Notes under the pieces: generated by a model
What the model saw: only the letters and a program-made list of their open reading frames with translations
The model's database searches: none
What the model was told of the DNA's origin: nothing
Translations under genes and position numbers: made by a program
Part shown: one piece after another, positions 251 to 11,689 of the stretch
Layout of the letters: each line of letters opens with the position of its first letter
Position numbering within the stretch: the first letter of the stretch is position 1
Origin: Actinomycetes bacterium
Lineage (GTDB): Bacteria; Actinomycetota; Acidimicrobiia; Acidimicrobiales; RAAP-2
Length of the DNA stretch: 64,000 bases
Reading direction: 5' to 3'
Assembly (NCBI GenBank): GCA_021845725.1
Contig: JAJZVL010000006.1
Span: forward strand, 1-64,000

Positions 251-958
251 CGGGACCCTTTCCCAAGCGAGGGATCGAGTATCGCAGGTCAGCAGCCAGG
301 CCATGCCTCCGGCGCAGGTCGACGAGTGGCCCGGTCCGACCAGTCTGGCCTTGTCCCGACGAGTGGCCCGGTCCGACCAGTCGGGCATTGTCAAGGATGG
401 CGATGAACGTCGGCCACCGCTGGTGAGCCTCCTGCAGCGCTGCCAGGTGCTGGGTGAGCCCGTCTTGGAGGTGCGCGACCGCTGGACTCGGCGATCCCAT
501 CCGGTGATCCAAGGCCTGCCGTGGGGGACGAGTCGACCGTCTGGCCGACCGCCCCCACGATCGATCTGGCCCGCATCGCCGAAGGCAGACCTCACGGCGA
601 ACCGTCACGCGCTGGGCGGTCAGGCTGATGGTGGCCCTTGCGCCACACGAGGGGTGGTTCGCGCTGTAAGAGGCCGGTGCCACCCAGCCGAGCACCTGGG
701 CGACGGCTCCAGGACTCTGTCGCCCCCTGTTCGCGCGCGAACCAAGCCGCGAACCCTCTCTGGGATGGGCAGACGATGTCAAATGCGTCGCGCGCCGAGG
801 CCGCGCTAGGTTCGCGAAGTGGGCCTGCTCGAAGCGGGGCGCTTCGACTCTGCTGTCGTGGCGGTTGAGCGCTCGCCCGCTGCTCTTCGCTTGGATCATC
901 TCGCCTCGCCGGTGTGGGACCGGCTGACAGCCGACGGCGCGGTCGGGAGAAGGGCAGC
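251..958. other. Region without a convincing gene
   Basis: No reading frame here has a recognisable domain, a good ribosome-binding site and a plausible composition together. A minus-strand stretch around 400-520 reads like coding sequence for a few dozen residues (HLQDGLTQHLAALQEAHQRW) but has no proper start and soon loses sense. With the truncated epimerase on its left, this looks like decayed or rearranged DNA. A 37-bp direct repeat lies at 320-393. The last 50 bases carry the upstream region of the peptidase gene. Confidence 0.5.
320..393. repeat. 37-bp direct tandem repeat, two copies
   Basis: The copies are 320-356 and 357-393. The first 26 bases (starting CGACGAGTGGCCCGGTCC) are identical; the last 11 differ at four positions. 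The repeat lies in the gene-free stretch beside the insertion element, so it may be a duplicated element end or simple slippage. Confidence 0.8.
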
Positions 959-2419
959 ATGAAGGCGCGTGGCGCCGCCCTGTTGAGCCTGTTCGTGGCT
1001 GTCGCACTCGCAGCCGGATTGACCCTCGGGACGGCCCTCGGGCCGCCGGAGCACGCAGGCGGGCTTCCTCCCCGCCAGCTCCAGGATCGTCGTTCGCCGG
1101 GGACGAGCCTCCTGACCGAGGCACAATGCCTCGCTGCACCTTCGATCCGCATGCCCTGTTACGACCCTGCCCAGATCGAGACCGCGTACGACGAGCTGCC
1201 GCTGCTCGCCAAGGGCATCGATGGACGCGGTCAGACGATCGCGATCGTGGACTCGTTCGGCTCCCCGACCATCCGAACCGACCTCGCCGTGTTCGACGCC
1301 CGGTTCCACCTGCCTGCCCCTCCGAGCCTGGACGTCATCCAGCCGGCAGGTCCTGTCCCGCGTTACAACTCCGCCACAACAACAATGGTCGGCTGGGCCG
1401 GGGAGACCACCCTCGATGTGGAGTGGGCCCACGCGGTGGCACCAGGGGCGAGCCTTCTTCTCGTCGAGACCCCGGTCTCGGAGACCGAGGGAGCAACCGG
1501 GTTCCCTCAGATCGTGGCTGCGGAGAACTACGTCATCGACCATCACCTGGGCGACGTCATCAGCCAGAGCTTCGGAGCCAACGAGAAGACCTTCACTTCT
1601 GTGGGCACGATCCAGTCACTGCGCAGCGCGTTCGTCGCGGCCGCAGCCGCAGGCGTGACCGTGGTCGCGTCGACGGGTGACACAGGCGTCAGTGATTATT
1701 CGACAGCGACAGGCAAGAGCTTCTCGACGGAGCCGACCGTCACATGGCCGGCGAGCGACCCGCTCGTCACCGCAGTTGGGGGCACTCAGCTCAGCTTGAA
1801 TGCGGCGGGGCAGCGAACCGCTCCCGATCAGGTCTGGAACGACTCGTATGATCCCGCCGCGAACCGCTTCGTGTTCGGCACAGCGAAGCCCCATCCTGAC
1901 GCGAGTGGCGGCGGGCTCTCGTCGGTCTTCTCGCGTCCGTCGTACCAAGCGGGCGTCGCGCAGGTCGTTGGCGATCATCGCGGGATCCCAGACATCTCGA
2001 TGAGTGCCGCGTGCTCGGGTCTTGTGGACACCTACCAGAGCTTCCCGGGGCCGACACCGCCGGGTTGGTACTACGTGTGTGGCACGAGCGAGTCGGCACC
2101 GCTGTTCGCAGGGATCGTCGCGCTCGCGGACCAAGAAGCCCATCATGGTCTCGGCCTGATCAACCCGGCGCTGTACGCGATGAAGCGAATGCACGATCCT
2201 GGGATCGTGCCGGTGACGAGGGGGGACACCACGGTGTCGTTCGAGCAGGACGGCACCGAGCACACGGTGAGCGGTTACCGCGCATCGGCGGGTTACAACC
2301 TCGCGTCCGGGCTGGGCACCGTGGATGCTGCACTGTTCGTCCCCGAACTGGTGCGAGCCGTCGCACGGGTCGGCACGTCGGCCAGCTACGGCTTTCTGCC
2401 TTCGAGCGGCGTGGGCTGA
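959..2419 (+). CDS. Secreted sedolisin-type (S53) peptidase
   Basis: Encodes a 486-residue serine-carboxyl peptidase with a subtilisin fold, a family that usually acts in acid outside the cell. The ATG at 959 follows AGAAGGG and opens a signal peptide: MKARG, then a hydrophobic run to about residue 27. Catalytic Glu149 and Asp153 lie in GETTLD, the oxyanion Asp241 in TGDTG, and the nucleophile Ser377 in GTSESAP. A YNLASGLGTVD segment near the C-terminus fits the calcium-site region. The large activation prodomain found in most family members is absent: only about 45 residues separate the signal peptide from the catalytic core. A start at 914 is possible but would bury the signal peptide. The stop lies inside the first unit of a 14-bp tandem repeat. 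Confidence 0.9.
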   Translation: MKARGAALLSLFVAVALAAGLTLGTALGPPEHAGGLPPRQLQDRRSPGTSLLTEAQCLAAPSIRMPCYDPAQIETAYDELPLLAKGIDGRGQTIAIVDSFGSPTIRTDLAVFDARFHLPAPPSLDVIQPAGPVPRYNSATTTMVGWAGETTLDVEWAHAVAPGASLLLVETPVSETEGATGFPQIVAAENYVIDHHLGDVISQSFGANEKTFTSVGTIQSLRSAFVAAAAAGVTVVASTGDTGVSDYSTATGKSFSTEPTVTWPASDPLVTAVGGTQLSLNAAGQRTAPDQVWNDSYDPAANRFVFGTAKPHPDASGGGLSSVFSRPSYQAGVAQVVGDHRGIPDISMSAACSGLVDTYQSFPGPTPPGWYYVCGTSESAPLFAGIVALADQEAHHGLGLINPALYAMKRMHDPGIVPVTRGDTTVSFEQDGTEHTVSGYRASAGYNLASGLGTVDAALFVPELVRAVARVGTSASYGFLPSSGVG

Positions 2420-2527: not shown

Positions 2528-4183
2528 TCAGCCCTCCGCCGATCCGGTCTCCCTGCCGCAGCCCTTCCTGCGGACGGCTTCCCCCGGGCGGTCTCCTCGG
2601 AGGCCGAGCTGCTCGCCGATCCGATCGGGATCGGTCTCCCAGTGCCAATTCCCCGATGGGATCGCCTCATCGAGAGGGGTGTCGGGACCCAGCAGTTCGC
2701 GCACGGCTGTCTCGAGCTCTCGAGGCGTCGACGCCCCGATCGCCTGCACCGTGCCGTCGATATCGACGAAGACGTTGGTGGGCACTCCACGGATCCCCAG
2801 CTTCTCGACGAGCGTGCCTCGTTCGTCGACAAGAACGGTGCCCTTTACGCCCCAGAGCTCACAGAATGTCCGGGCCTCAGTGAACGCGTTCGTCCCCTCC
2901 CACACGTCGACGAGGATGATCTCCAGGCCAGACCGGCCTGCACGGCGACGCAGGTCTTCGATGACCGGCGCTTCCGCATTGCACGGGCCTCACCAGCTGG
3001 CGAACACGTTGACGACGTACTTGCGCCCAGCCCACTCGCCCAGGTCGCGCAGCTCCCTCGTCCAGAGGTCCGGCAGAAAGAGGCGTGGCATCTTGCTGCC
3101 CACCATCGGGTGCTCCCCGCGTGCGACAGGCACGACCGGGGGTCCGGCGAGCAAATCGTCAGCAACCGTGAGGGTCCCGGACCCAGCGTTCGCGACGAGG
3201 ATGCGGCCGGGGTGCAACGGATCCTCCCAGACACCTCCGGGGGCGGCGCCGACAGGGATCCTTGACCACTCGGTTCCGTCGAGCCCCATCACGCTCACGG
3301 TGCCGTCGCCGCGATTGCCGACGTAGAGGCGGTCATCGCGCGATCCGACGGTGAGCCCGACAGGAGCGTTCGGCACCGCCATCTCGGCGATCTTCTCGAT
3401 GCTGCGGCCGTCGACGCGGGTGATCGTGCTAGTGAGCGAGTCGGCGATGAAGACGTCGCCGCTCGTCTGGTGCAGACCAATGGCGCACGGTCCGGCCGGC
3501 AGGCCCAGGCGTGCAGTGACCTCGAGCGTCTGCGCGTCGACGACGCTCAAGGAAGAGGCGACGAAGTTCACGCAGTAGACCCGCCCTGCGCCAGGATCCA
3601 CCGCGACGGCACCTGCACCCAGCTCCGCCTCGACGACGCCGATCCGCTCGAGACGGTCGACGTCGACGACGCTCATCGTCGAGCCCGCGGCGTCCCCGCA
3701 GTAGATGCGTCGCCCCTCGGTGTCGATGCACAGCCCCGCGGGGTAGGAGCCCACCGTGATGGTGGTCACGACCTGCCCCGCCGCCGCGTCGATCACCGAG
3801 ATCTGGTCGGAGCGCGCGTCAGCGCTGAAAACTCTGCCCGTCTGGTCGTCGACCACGATGTCGATGGGCTCGCCTCCGACGGGGATCATCGCGATGACGC
3901 GTAGCTCCTCGGGGTCGACGACGGCGACGGCGTTGGACCGCGAGCACGCGACGTAGATGCGACCGGTCGCCCGGTGGACGGCGACCCCTTCGGGGTCGAG
4001 GCCGACCTCCACCTCACCCACGAGCCGGTACGCTCGTCCTTCGCCGGCGAGGTCGATCTGGCAGCTGGGCCCGCCGTCGAGGACCGCCGGCAGCACCGGC
4101 GAGTCCGTGTCGATGCTGCCACCTTGCGCGTGGGGCTCCACGCGCGGCTCGTCCTTGCGCGGCTCGTTCAGCGGGGAGGGCAT
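2528..4183 (-). CDS. Putative selenoprotein: beta-propeller fused to thioredoxin-like domain with in-frame UGA
   Basis: Read through one TGA, this encodes 551 residues. The ATG at 4183 follows AAGGAG seven bases upstream. Residues about 50-350 are YncE/NHL-like propeller blades with repeated VAVDP..GRVY and SVVD motifs. Residues about 360-515 are a TlpA/thioredoxin-like fold: KYVVNVFASW, then TGA at codon 398, then GPCNAEAPVIEDL, and a cis-proline loop GVPTNVFVD. The TGA takes the place of the first cysteine of WCGPC, giving a Sec398-x-x-Cys401 pair. The frame stays open and domain-like for 154 codons after the TGA. No signal peptide is visible, so a cytoplasmic location is inferred. The divergent neighbour is the selenocysteine tRNA. 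The alternative is a nonsense mutation making a propeller-only product with a dead tail, or a sequencing error. A separate short start at 2905 is unlikely because it would lack the redox motif. Confidence 0.8.
2924..2989 (-). promoter_or_regulatory. Candidate SECIS hairpins downstream of the UGA
   Basis: Two hairpins can be drawn in the mRNA after the UGA. The near one pairs GGUC with GACC around the loop AUCGAA, starting 24 bases after the UGA, which is the usual distance for bacterial SECIS elements. Its stem is short and the loop lacks G in its first two positions. The far one (2924-2940) pairs CAGGCC with GGCCUG around a GGUCU loop, the apical sequence of the E. coli fdhF element as I recall it. 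Its loop begins about 55 bases from the UGA, beyond the usual range. Neither is conclusive. Confidence 0.35.
2990..2992 (-). other. In-frame UGA, probable selenocysteine codon
   Basis: The codon order is TTC GCC AGC TGG TGA GGC CCG TGC, giving F-A-S-W-(UGA)-G-P-C. The expected residue at this point in TlpA-like thioredoxins is cysteine (TGC/TGT). UxxC motifs in thioredoxin folds are an established selenoprotein signature. Confidence 0.75.
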
Positions 4184-4318: not shown

Positions 4319-4373
4319 GCTCGGCGACCTGCTCGGCGACCTGCTCGGCGACGTGCTCGGCGACGTGCTCGGG
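4319..4373. repeat. 12-bp tandem repeat upstream of selC
   Basis: Four copies of GCTCGGCGACST (two with CT, two with GT at the end) plus a partial fifth lie between the divergent selenoprotein gene and the selenocysteine tRNA. No gene covers them. They occupy the region where promoters for both genes should lie. Confidence 0.85.
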
Positions 4374-4420: not shown

Positions 4421-4513
4421 GGAGGTGTCCAGGCGCCTGGTGGGCCTCCCCGCCTTCAAAGCGGGTGGGACGGGTGATCCCCGTCCGGCGGGTTCGATTC
4501 CCGTCCACCTCCG
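4421..4513 (+). tRNA. selC: tRNA-Sec (anticodon TCA)
   Basis: The acceptor arms GGAGGTG and CACCTCC pair, and a further position (T4428/C4505) suggests the long acceptor arm of tRNA-Sec with one mismatch. The D-stem is long (AGGCGC with one mismatch) and closes a CTGGT loop. The anticodon stem CCCGC/GCGGG holds the loop CTTCAAA, giving TCA at 4456-4458. A long variable arm pairs GGACGGG with CCCGTCC. The T-arm is CGGG-TTCGATT-CCCG. The discriminator is G4513 and CCA is not encoded. UCA anticodon, long extra arm and enlarged D-stem together distinguish it from tRNA-Ser and from suppressors. It lies 238 bases from the candidate selenoprotein start. No selA, selB or selD is in the window. Confidence 0.92.
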
Positions 4514-4739
4514 CGAGAGCGATGTGACCGACGGCGGGCGTCCGCGAGGGAGCTGCCGCCATGACGCAGCCTGACGAAGAGCCGCTGCTCCCGGCCGCGA
4601 GGTTGGTTGCGTGCGGCCTTGGGCTCGGGCGCCAGCTCCTTGCGGCACGCACGTATAGTTGTGACCCCACGCGTGCTCGGGCCGGCGGCACGTTGCCAGC
4701 TACGCGCATGGATCAGCGCGAAGGGATACGAGGAGCCAC

Positions 4740-10249: not shown

Positions 10250-11689
10250 TTGCCTGACGGCCTGCGCCGATCGTGGCGGGACGTGCAGGAGTCCTGGGAG
10301 CGGTCCCGGGGCATCGTCGTCCCCGCATCGGTCGCGGCGGCCGACGCGGCTGCCGGCGGCCTGCGGGTCGCCTTCCTCGTGTACCGAGGGAACCCGCAGT
10401 GCGGGGGCCAGGGCGTCTACACGCGCCACCTCACCCGTGAGCTGGTCGCCCTCGGGCACTCGGTGACGGTCTTCTCGGGACAGCCGTGGCCCCTGCTCGA
10501 CGAGGGGGTGGGGTTCGTCCCCGTTCCCGGCCTCGACCTCTATCGTGACCCCGACCCGTTCCGCCTGCCCCATCCCCGAGAGCTCCGCGACCTCGCGGCG
10601 GTGGCGGAGCTGGGTGTGATGCTCACGGGCGGCTTCGGGGAGCCGTTCGCCTTCTCATTGCGTGCCAGGCGCGCGCTACGAGCCAGACGTGGGGCGTTCG
10701 ACCTCGTCCACGACAACCAGTGCCTCGGGACCGGGATGCTCGGCATCCTCGCCGACGGGTGGCCGCTGCTCACCACCTTGCACCATCCCATCACGGTGGA
10801 CCGCCAGCTCGCGCTCAGTCACGCGCCCGGACCCTGGCAGCGTTACACGACGCGACGGTGGTTCGGCTTCTTGGGGATGCAGATGCGCGTTGCCAGGCAA
10901 CTGCCTCGAATCGTCACCGTCTCGCATTCCTCGCGTGCGGACATCGCCGCGCAGATGGGGGTCGAGGCGCACCGTATGACGGTTGTCCCCGTCGGCGTCG
11001 ACCACGACGTGTTCCGGCCGCGTGCCGACGTGGTGCCCGTTCCCGGCCGCATCATGGTCACCTCGTCGAGCGACGTGCCGATGAAGGGCCTCGTACCGCT
11101 GCTCGAGGCGGTCGCACGGCTGCGCGCCTCGCGCGACGTCGAGCTCGTCGTCGTCGGCCGGCCGCGCAAGGGGGGACGCGTAGACCGTGCGCTCGACCGG
11201 CTGGGGCTCCGCGCCGTCGTGCGCTGCATCAGCGGGATCACCGACGAGGAGCTCGCTCGCTGCTACGCAGAGGCCGAGATCGCCGTCGTTCCCTCCCTCT
11301 ACGAGGGGTTCTCGCTGCCGGCGGTCGAGGCCATGGCTTGCGGCGTGCCGGTCGTGACGACGACGGGGGGAGCGCTTCCCGAAGTCGTCGGTCGCGACGG
11401 CGAGACCGCGGTGCTCGTCCCGCCCGACGACCCCGGAGCCCTTGCCGCGGCGATCGGCGCGCTGCTCGACGACCCGGCCGCCCGTGCGCGGCTCGGCGCC
11501 GCGGGGAGGGAACGGGTGCTCCGGCGCTTCACGTGGCGGGTGACCGCCGAGGGCACGGCGGAGTGCTATCGCGCCCTGCTCGAGGAGCGAGGCCCCGGCG
11601 CGCGAGGGCGGGTCGGAGGAGGCGATCCGGCACGTGGAGCATCCCCGACGCTTGACGCGTCGCCGCTCACCGGGGCGGCCGCGTGCTGA
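10250..11689 (+). CDS. Glycosyltransferase family 4
   Basis: Encodes 479 residues with two Rossmann-like halves. The N-terminal half begins LRVAFLVYRGNPQCGGQGVY, the acceptor-side glycine loop. The C-terminal half carries the nucleotide-sugar EX7E signature in YEGFSLPAVEAMACG. It should be a retaining, cytoplasmic or membrane-peripheral sugar transferase. It overlaps the next methyltransferase gene by seven bases, and that gene in turn overlaps a toroid-fold gene, so the three form one operon. The start is uncertain: TTG at 10250 gives the longest frame, and a GTG at 10283 is possible. The last 30 residues are Gly/Arg-rich and likely disordered. Confidence 0.9.
   Translation: MPDGLRRSWRDVQESWERSRGIVVPASVAAADAAAGGLRVAFLVYRGNPQCGGQGVYTRHLTRELVALGHSVTVFSGQPWPLLDEGVGFVPVPGLDLYRDPDPFRLPHPRELRDLAAVAELGVMLTGGFGEPFAFSLRARRALRARRGAFDLVHDNQCLGTGMLGILADGWPLLTTLHHPITVDRQLALSHAPGPWQRYTTRRWFGFLGMQMRVARQLPRIVTVSHSSRADIAAQMGVEAHRMTVVPVGVDHDVFRPRADVVPVPGRIMVTSSSDVPMKGLVPLLEAVARLRASRDVELVVVGRPRKGGRVDRALDRLGLRAVVRCISGITDEELARCYAEAEIAVVPSLYEGFSLPAVEAMACGVPVVTTTGGALPEVVGRDGETAVLVPPDDPGALAAAIGALLDDPAARARLGAAGRERVLRRFTWRVTAEGTAECYRALLEERGPGARGRVGGGDPARGASPTLDASPLTGAAAC

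Follow-up and report, generated by a model that had tools for sequence, protein, structure and literature searches.

An in-frame UGA at the redox site of a propeller-thioredoxin protein: a predicted selenoprotein family of the Actinomycetota

On the minus strand of the window, by which we mean the whole stretch of 64,000 nucleotides that was analysed (contig JAJZVL010000006.1 of an Acidimicrobiales genome), a long frame runs from a beta-propeller into a thioredoxin-like domain across a TGA. Does this codon end a propeller protein, or is it read as selenocysteine (Sec) in a longer enzyme? The comparative sequence evidence strongly supports decoding as Sec, and the gene very probably represents a real selenoprotein family, one which is not described under a propeller-thioredoxin architecture.

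The gene and its predicted product

The features of the gene are as follows.

2528..4183, minus strand: predicted selenoprotein gene, propeller plus C-terminal Redoxin/TlpA-type thioredoxin domain, 551 codons
3155..4030, minus strand: propeller region, residues ~52-343, 28 strands forming 7 blades, with invariant C80, C204 and C233
2690..3106, minus strand: Redoxin/thioredoxin-like domain, residues ~360-498, with U398-G-P-C401 and the cis-Pro loop GVPTN
complement(2990..2992), minus strand: predicted Sec codon TGA398, occupying the first redox position in W-U-G-P-C; TGA in 24/24 orthologues

The frame begins with ATG at 4183, preceded by a GGAG Shine-Dalgarno sequence, and closes with a terminal TGA (2528-2530, minus strand), TGA398 being the sole internal stop among the 551 codons. 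Its context is KYVVNVFASW-UGA-GPCNAEAPVIEDL, and it therefore occupies exactly the site of the first redox cysteine of thioredoxin-fold enzymes; C401 is the second redox cysteine. The initial annotation had described a beta-propeller frame entering a thioredoxin-like domain with TGA at the first redox cysteine as the only break, a description borne out by the ORF and Pfam analyses. It gave 154 codons after the TGA, where we count 153 sense codons.

Pfam identified the N-terminal part as a propeller of the YncE/NHL type, and two families of the thioredoxin fold span the TGA: Redoxin, PF08534 [1.2e-13, 51.5 bits against a cut-off of 26.6], and AhpC-TSA, PF00578 [3e-10, over its cut-off]. The YVTN repeat model TIGR02276 scored 116.5 bits (cut-off 27.85). 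The AlphaFold model built on the alignment (pLDDT 83.5, pTM 0.83) shows 28 propeller strands, that is, seven blades, followed by a thioredoxin fold, with low confidence for residues 1-48 and the tail. Foldseek placed the archaeal YVTN propeller 1l0q at the top of its matches and also returned E. coli YncE, while in a profile search the best solved relatives of the thioredoxin domain were ResA and other thioredoxin-family structures (4nmu, 2f9s, 1st9 and others). U398, C401 and the GVP loop are invariant, as are the three propeller cysteines (24/24). A strongly hydrophobic N-terminal stretch is absent from the window protein and from most members, and no signal peptide is present; on this ground the protein is probably cytosolic. 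Of the two high N-terminal hydrophobicity values, one (L070) comes from propeller sequence and the other (L114) from a gene whose start is uncertain.

Tail to tail with this gene lies one for a 501-aa subtilase-like protease (914-2416, plus strand; PF00082, E 9e-12), which keeps its place beside the selenoprotein gene in three relatives (L007-L009). A tandem repeat of about 15 bases, TGAGCGGCGTGGGC, fills 2405-2490, between the ends of the two genes, and a second short repeat, CTGCTCGGCGAC, is found at 4320-4370. ARAGORN also reported a tRNA-Thr(CGT) at 11321-11410 (plus strand) within a protein-coding region; it has no Rfam support and is probably spurious. A plasmid origin was considered and set aside, there being no match in the plasmid collection.

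Conservation of the codon, its RNA context and the selenocysteine machinery

It had been proposed at the outset to look for homologues with TGC or TGT, and for other genomes with TGA, at codon 398; TGA at random positions or several further frame breaks would have counted against a selenoprotein. Each of the 24 full-length orthologues (window counted in) has TGA at this same codon, an agreement far beyond chance, and none has Cys (0/24), Cys occurring in single-domain relatives; no other in-frame stop was found in their 12,498 codons. These orthologues share 43-94% pairwise identity and belong to two classes of one phylum. They include L007, L008 and L009 (92, 85 and 77% identity), nine further orthologues of 46-58% identity from 397 genomes of the same order, one from another class of the phylum (G954, found in the phylum search) and ten more from a search of the order to which G954 belongs.

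The genome samples numbered 397 (order), 395 (class), 396 (phylum) and 129 (second order) and partly overlap. In these samples no full-length Cys orthologue was found, and the usual full-length Sec/Cys pair is thus absent. Outside the phylum a pattern scan of contigs, whose reach is limited to close relatives, also returned no full-length Cys version. After the orthologues, the best matches in the order, class and phylum samples consisted of the propeller only. Cys at the Sec position is found in single-domain homologues among L010-L022, which form Sec/Cys pairs at the level of the domain only; TlpA-like single-domain proteins from Eremiobacterota and Actinobacteria read YVNFFASWCGPCNAEAPSIGKL and similar, with Cys opposite the UGA of the window.

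For the window against L007, L008 and L009, dN/dS after the TGA is 0.19, 0.20 and 0.19 versus 0.17, 0.17 and 0.14 in the propeller, which indicates that the segment after the TGA is translated and under selection; in the same comparisons constraint is weak over the last 43 codons. A pseudogene is excluded by these ratios, and a sequencing error or frameshift by the presence of the same TGA in 24 separate genome assemblies.

A stem-loop can be drawn shortly after the TGA.

2948..2971, minus strand: candidate SECIS stem-loop, +19 to +42 after TGA, GCGC C GGUC [AUCGAA] GACC U GCGU

The bSECIS model calls for a stem-loop located 16-37 nt downstream of the UGA, a G in positions 1-2 of its loop and an MFE of -7.5 kcal/mol or lower (PMC13188914). 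No strict match to this model was found, the candidate loop having no G in positions 1-2, and we therefore keep the element as a candidate, in which we place moderate confidence. According to the same 2026 review some bacterial elements also break the loop-G rule (PMC13188914). The RNA-folding check suggested in the initial annotation returned a stem-loop after the TGA, one whose loop departs from the standard rule.

In most orthologues GCGC-C-GGUC[loop of 6]GACC-U-GCGU, or a structure very like it, is possible, again from 19 nt after the TGA. Synonymous conservation peaks at codons +5 to +19, with an excess (0.240) that no other 15-codon stretch of the gene attains, the mean over such windows being 0.073 (sd 0.061); a propeller segment reaches 0.230. 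For codons +4 to +16, folding was better than that of synonymous recodings (p<0.05) in seven of ten sequences, the other windows of the three tried being weaker, and a 33-nt window at the site was the best-folding one of its gene in only one of five sequences scanned. For the named structure, 91.5% of cells are paired, which is only moderately above the 88.5% of shuffles (8 of the 500 reached as high a value), and pairing falls to 33-59% when the structure is slid along the alignment. RNA covariation, with two-sided change in only one pair, is not decisive.

The genes for Sec insertion are present as well. The initial annotation placed a selenocysteine tRNA beside the gene, and both ARAGORN and Rfam find it there.

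4421..4514, plus strand: selC, tRNA-Sec, anticodon TCA, divergent from the selenoprotein gene

This tRNA lies 237 bp upstream of the selenoprotein gene and scores 67.8 bits against RF01852 (gathering score 47). A genome lacking selA, selB and selD would have spoken against a selenoprotein; in the window genome all of them are present, in one selB-selD-selA cluster on contig C117. SelA scores 378 bits (cut-off 268) and SelD 321 bits (cut-off 125). SelB, at 221.5 bits, is slightly below its curated cut-off of 242; its gene sits beside selA and selD, and a match is also obtained for the C-terminal part of the protein. The genome encodes a second selenoprotein, a formate dehydrogenase alpha subunit (L101, G000:C120:2431-4293) with in-frame TGA in the classical motif N-R-T-U-H-A-P. 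SepSecS had no match in the window genome, which uses SelA, and Sec synthesis of the archaeal/eukaryotic type is excluded on this basis.

The linkage recurs in other carriers. In the window and in L007-L009 selC is adjacent and divergent; in G031 and G260 the five genes share a strand in the order selA-selB-selD-selC-selenoprotein gene; in G198 and G361 the selenoprotein gene has fdh genes, selA and selC within ~12 kb of it. In G198 the Sec TGA of fdhA was read, and the cluster also holds hemerythrin and NrfD genes. All 10 carriers of the order sample possess selA, compared with 234 of the 397 genomes overall; the chance of this is ~0.005 if the genomes are taken as independent, relatedness being ignored. 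G954, of the other class, has selA and a tRNA-Sec.

At L085:8701-15999 and in L086, genes for hemerythrin, fdhA, NrfD and selA adjoin the propeller-thioredoxin gene, the Sec TGA of fdhA having been read in L085; this neighbourhood suggests a selenium/formate island. Among the genomes listed from the order sample, none of the 17 others in the family of the window genome (f1) matched for selA or the selenoprotein, while the window genome (G000) has the whole Sec trait. This pattern suggests that the trait was lost in the relatives or gained by transfer, or that binning was at fault.

Proposed activity and rival readings

That UGA398 is a true stop, so that the product is a propeller protein only and the thioredoxin part a separate or decaying frame, is scarcely credible. 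UGA is a usual stop in the window genome and the selenoprotein gene itself ends with it, but a stop here would cut a thioredoxin domain mid-motif, and that domain continues in frame after the UGA with dN/dS of 0.19-0.20. The presence of TGA in 24/24 with no other stop, together with the linkage to sel genes, also argues against termination. Decoding by a suppressor or reassigned tRNA that inserts cysteine or tryptophan in place of Sec we consider very unlikely. Recoding of Sec UGA codons is known in some bacteria, which gives this reading some footing; against it, UGA terminates normal genes in the window genome, which has selA, selB, selD, selC and a Sec-type fdhA, and every carrier examined has selA.

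Our preferred reading, Sec-decoded UGA398 in a cytosolic propeller-U-G-P-C thioredoxin reductase, is as a whole highly probable. SelB and tRNA-Sec would read UGA398 as Sec, and in the product a seven-bladed YVTN propeller would be followed by a TlpA/ResA-like thioredoxin domain with U-G-P-C as its active site. The Sec selenolate would attack an oxidised substrate, a disulfide or similar; resolution by C401 would then yield a selenyl-sulfide, which a thiol system of the cell would reduce again. The propeller would most likely position a partner or client, possibly via its three invariant cysteines, which may relay electrons or bind metal or selenium species. A Sec-dependent thiol-disulfide reductase is most likely, its predicted chemistry following from the domain family; for the propeller we infer that it most likely holds the client.

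Variants of this activity may be envisaged. That the family is obligately selenium-dependent, with no Cys version of the full architecture, and, being encoded with selA-selB-selD-selC, serves selenium metabolism itself, with the cysteines holding selenium, metal or an oxidised client which Sec then reduces, for example to supply SelD with reduced selenium, we regard as distinctly doubtful. A dual product, in which selenium switches the gene between a 397-residue propeller and the full enzyme, both functional, would add to the preferred reading; it is on the whole unlikely. In the structural model the propeller alone is a complete fold that ends before the thioredoxin domain, and incomplete efficiency of UGA decoding would favour the idea, for we know of no bacterial system in which UGA is decoded as Sec with full efficiency. 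However, the sequence revealed nothing specific to a regulated switch. Lastly the selenoprotein might reduce peroxide or alkyl hydroperoxide instead of disulfides, as might be suspected from the scores of PF08534 and PF00578, both over their cut-offs. We see this as possible, if somewhat improbable, since W-U-G-P-C, the resolving C401 and the cis-Pro loop are of the thioredoxin/TlpA type, the nearest solved relatives are ResA and other thioredoxin-family proteins, and the peroxiredoxin motif PxxxTxxU (PMC13188914) is absent.

Significance and comparison with known systems

The Sec reading adds to the Actinomycetota a selenoprotein family whose combination of domains the current catalogue does not contain, and for this reason automatic annotation is likely to truncate such genes at the TGA, so that the catalytic half is lost. 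The family may also escape methods built on whole-protein Sec/Cys pairs, since the searches returned no Cys orthologue of full length; the deep-Sep authors state this limit for their own method (PMC12013277). With regard to physiological role, the tight selC linkage and the whole sel operon in two genomes give a tractable hint, and a propeller-held redox relay would be directly testable through the three invariant propeller cysteines.

A propeller-thioredoxin selenoprotein is absent from the 2026 catalogue of 119 selenoprotein families and subfamilies, the fullest that we found, in which the word propeller does not occur (PMC13188914). The same catalogue lists, as a predicted selenoprotein, a "Redoxin family protein" with PF08534 and UxxC (example HEU0032618.1), that is, with the same catalytic domain and the same motif as the protein of the window. 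That entry is described by its domain alone, the propeller being unmentioned, and the two are set apart by description only; MBA3499694.1 is another catalogued example of a UxxC redoxin. The initial annotation knew of no described selenoprotein of propeller-thioredoxin architecture, and this stands for the architecture, while the UxxC Redoxin kind was already listed; what is new is the fusion and the family rather than a redoxin with UxxC. A search of the literature for YVTN or Acidimicrobiia selenoproteins returned nothing, and among the curated NCBIfam models the window protein attains the cut-off of the YVTN repeat only, and of no selenoprotein model.

The protein resembles the ResA-like WAxxUGC selenoprotein (NF041054) and the UGC-containing TlpA disulfide reductase family in having a TlpA/ResA-like fold with a Sec active site, but the motif is UGPC rather than UGC, and NF041054 gives 54 bits against a cut-off of 300. 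The thiol-disulfide oxidoreductases ResA, TlpA and DsbE, which supply the nearest solved structures for the thioredoxin domain, use Cys and are extracytoplasmic; the window protein differs in its predicted Sec, its propeller fusion and the lack of a clear N-terminal hydrophobic segment, and scores 60 bits against the 170 of the curated ResA subfamily NF002854. With the seven-bladed YVTN/YncE propellers (1l0q, 3vgz, 3vh0), the top matches by sequence and structure, it shares the fold; these propellers have neither a thioredoxin domain nor Sec, and the score against the YncE equivalog NF052280 is 62 bits versus 400. Human NHLRC2 likewise carries a thioredoxin-like domain and a beta-propeller in a single chain, the thioredoxin active site facing the propeller (PMC6107167). 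Its domains are in the reverse order, with six NHL blades, an extra C-terminal domain and the motif CCINC without Sec (PMC6107167), whereas the window protein has seven predicted blades, no third domain and UGPC.
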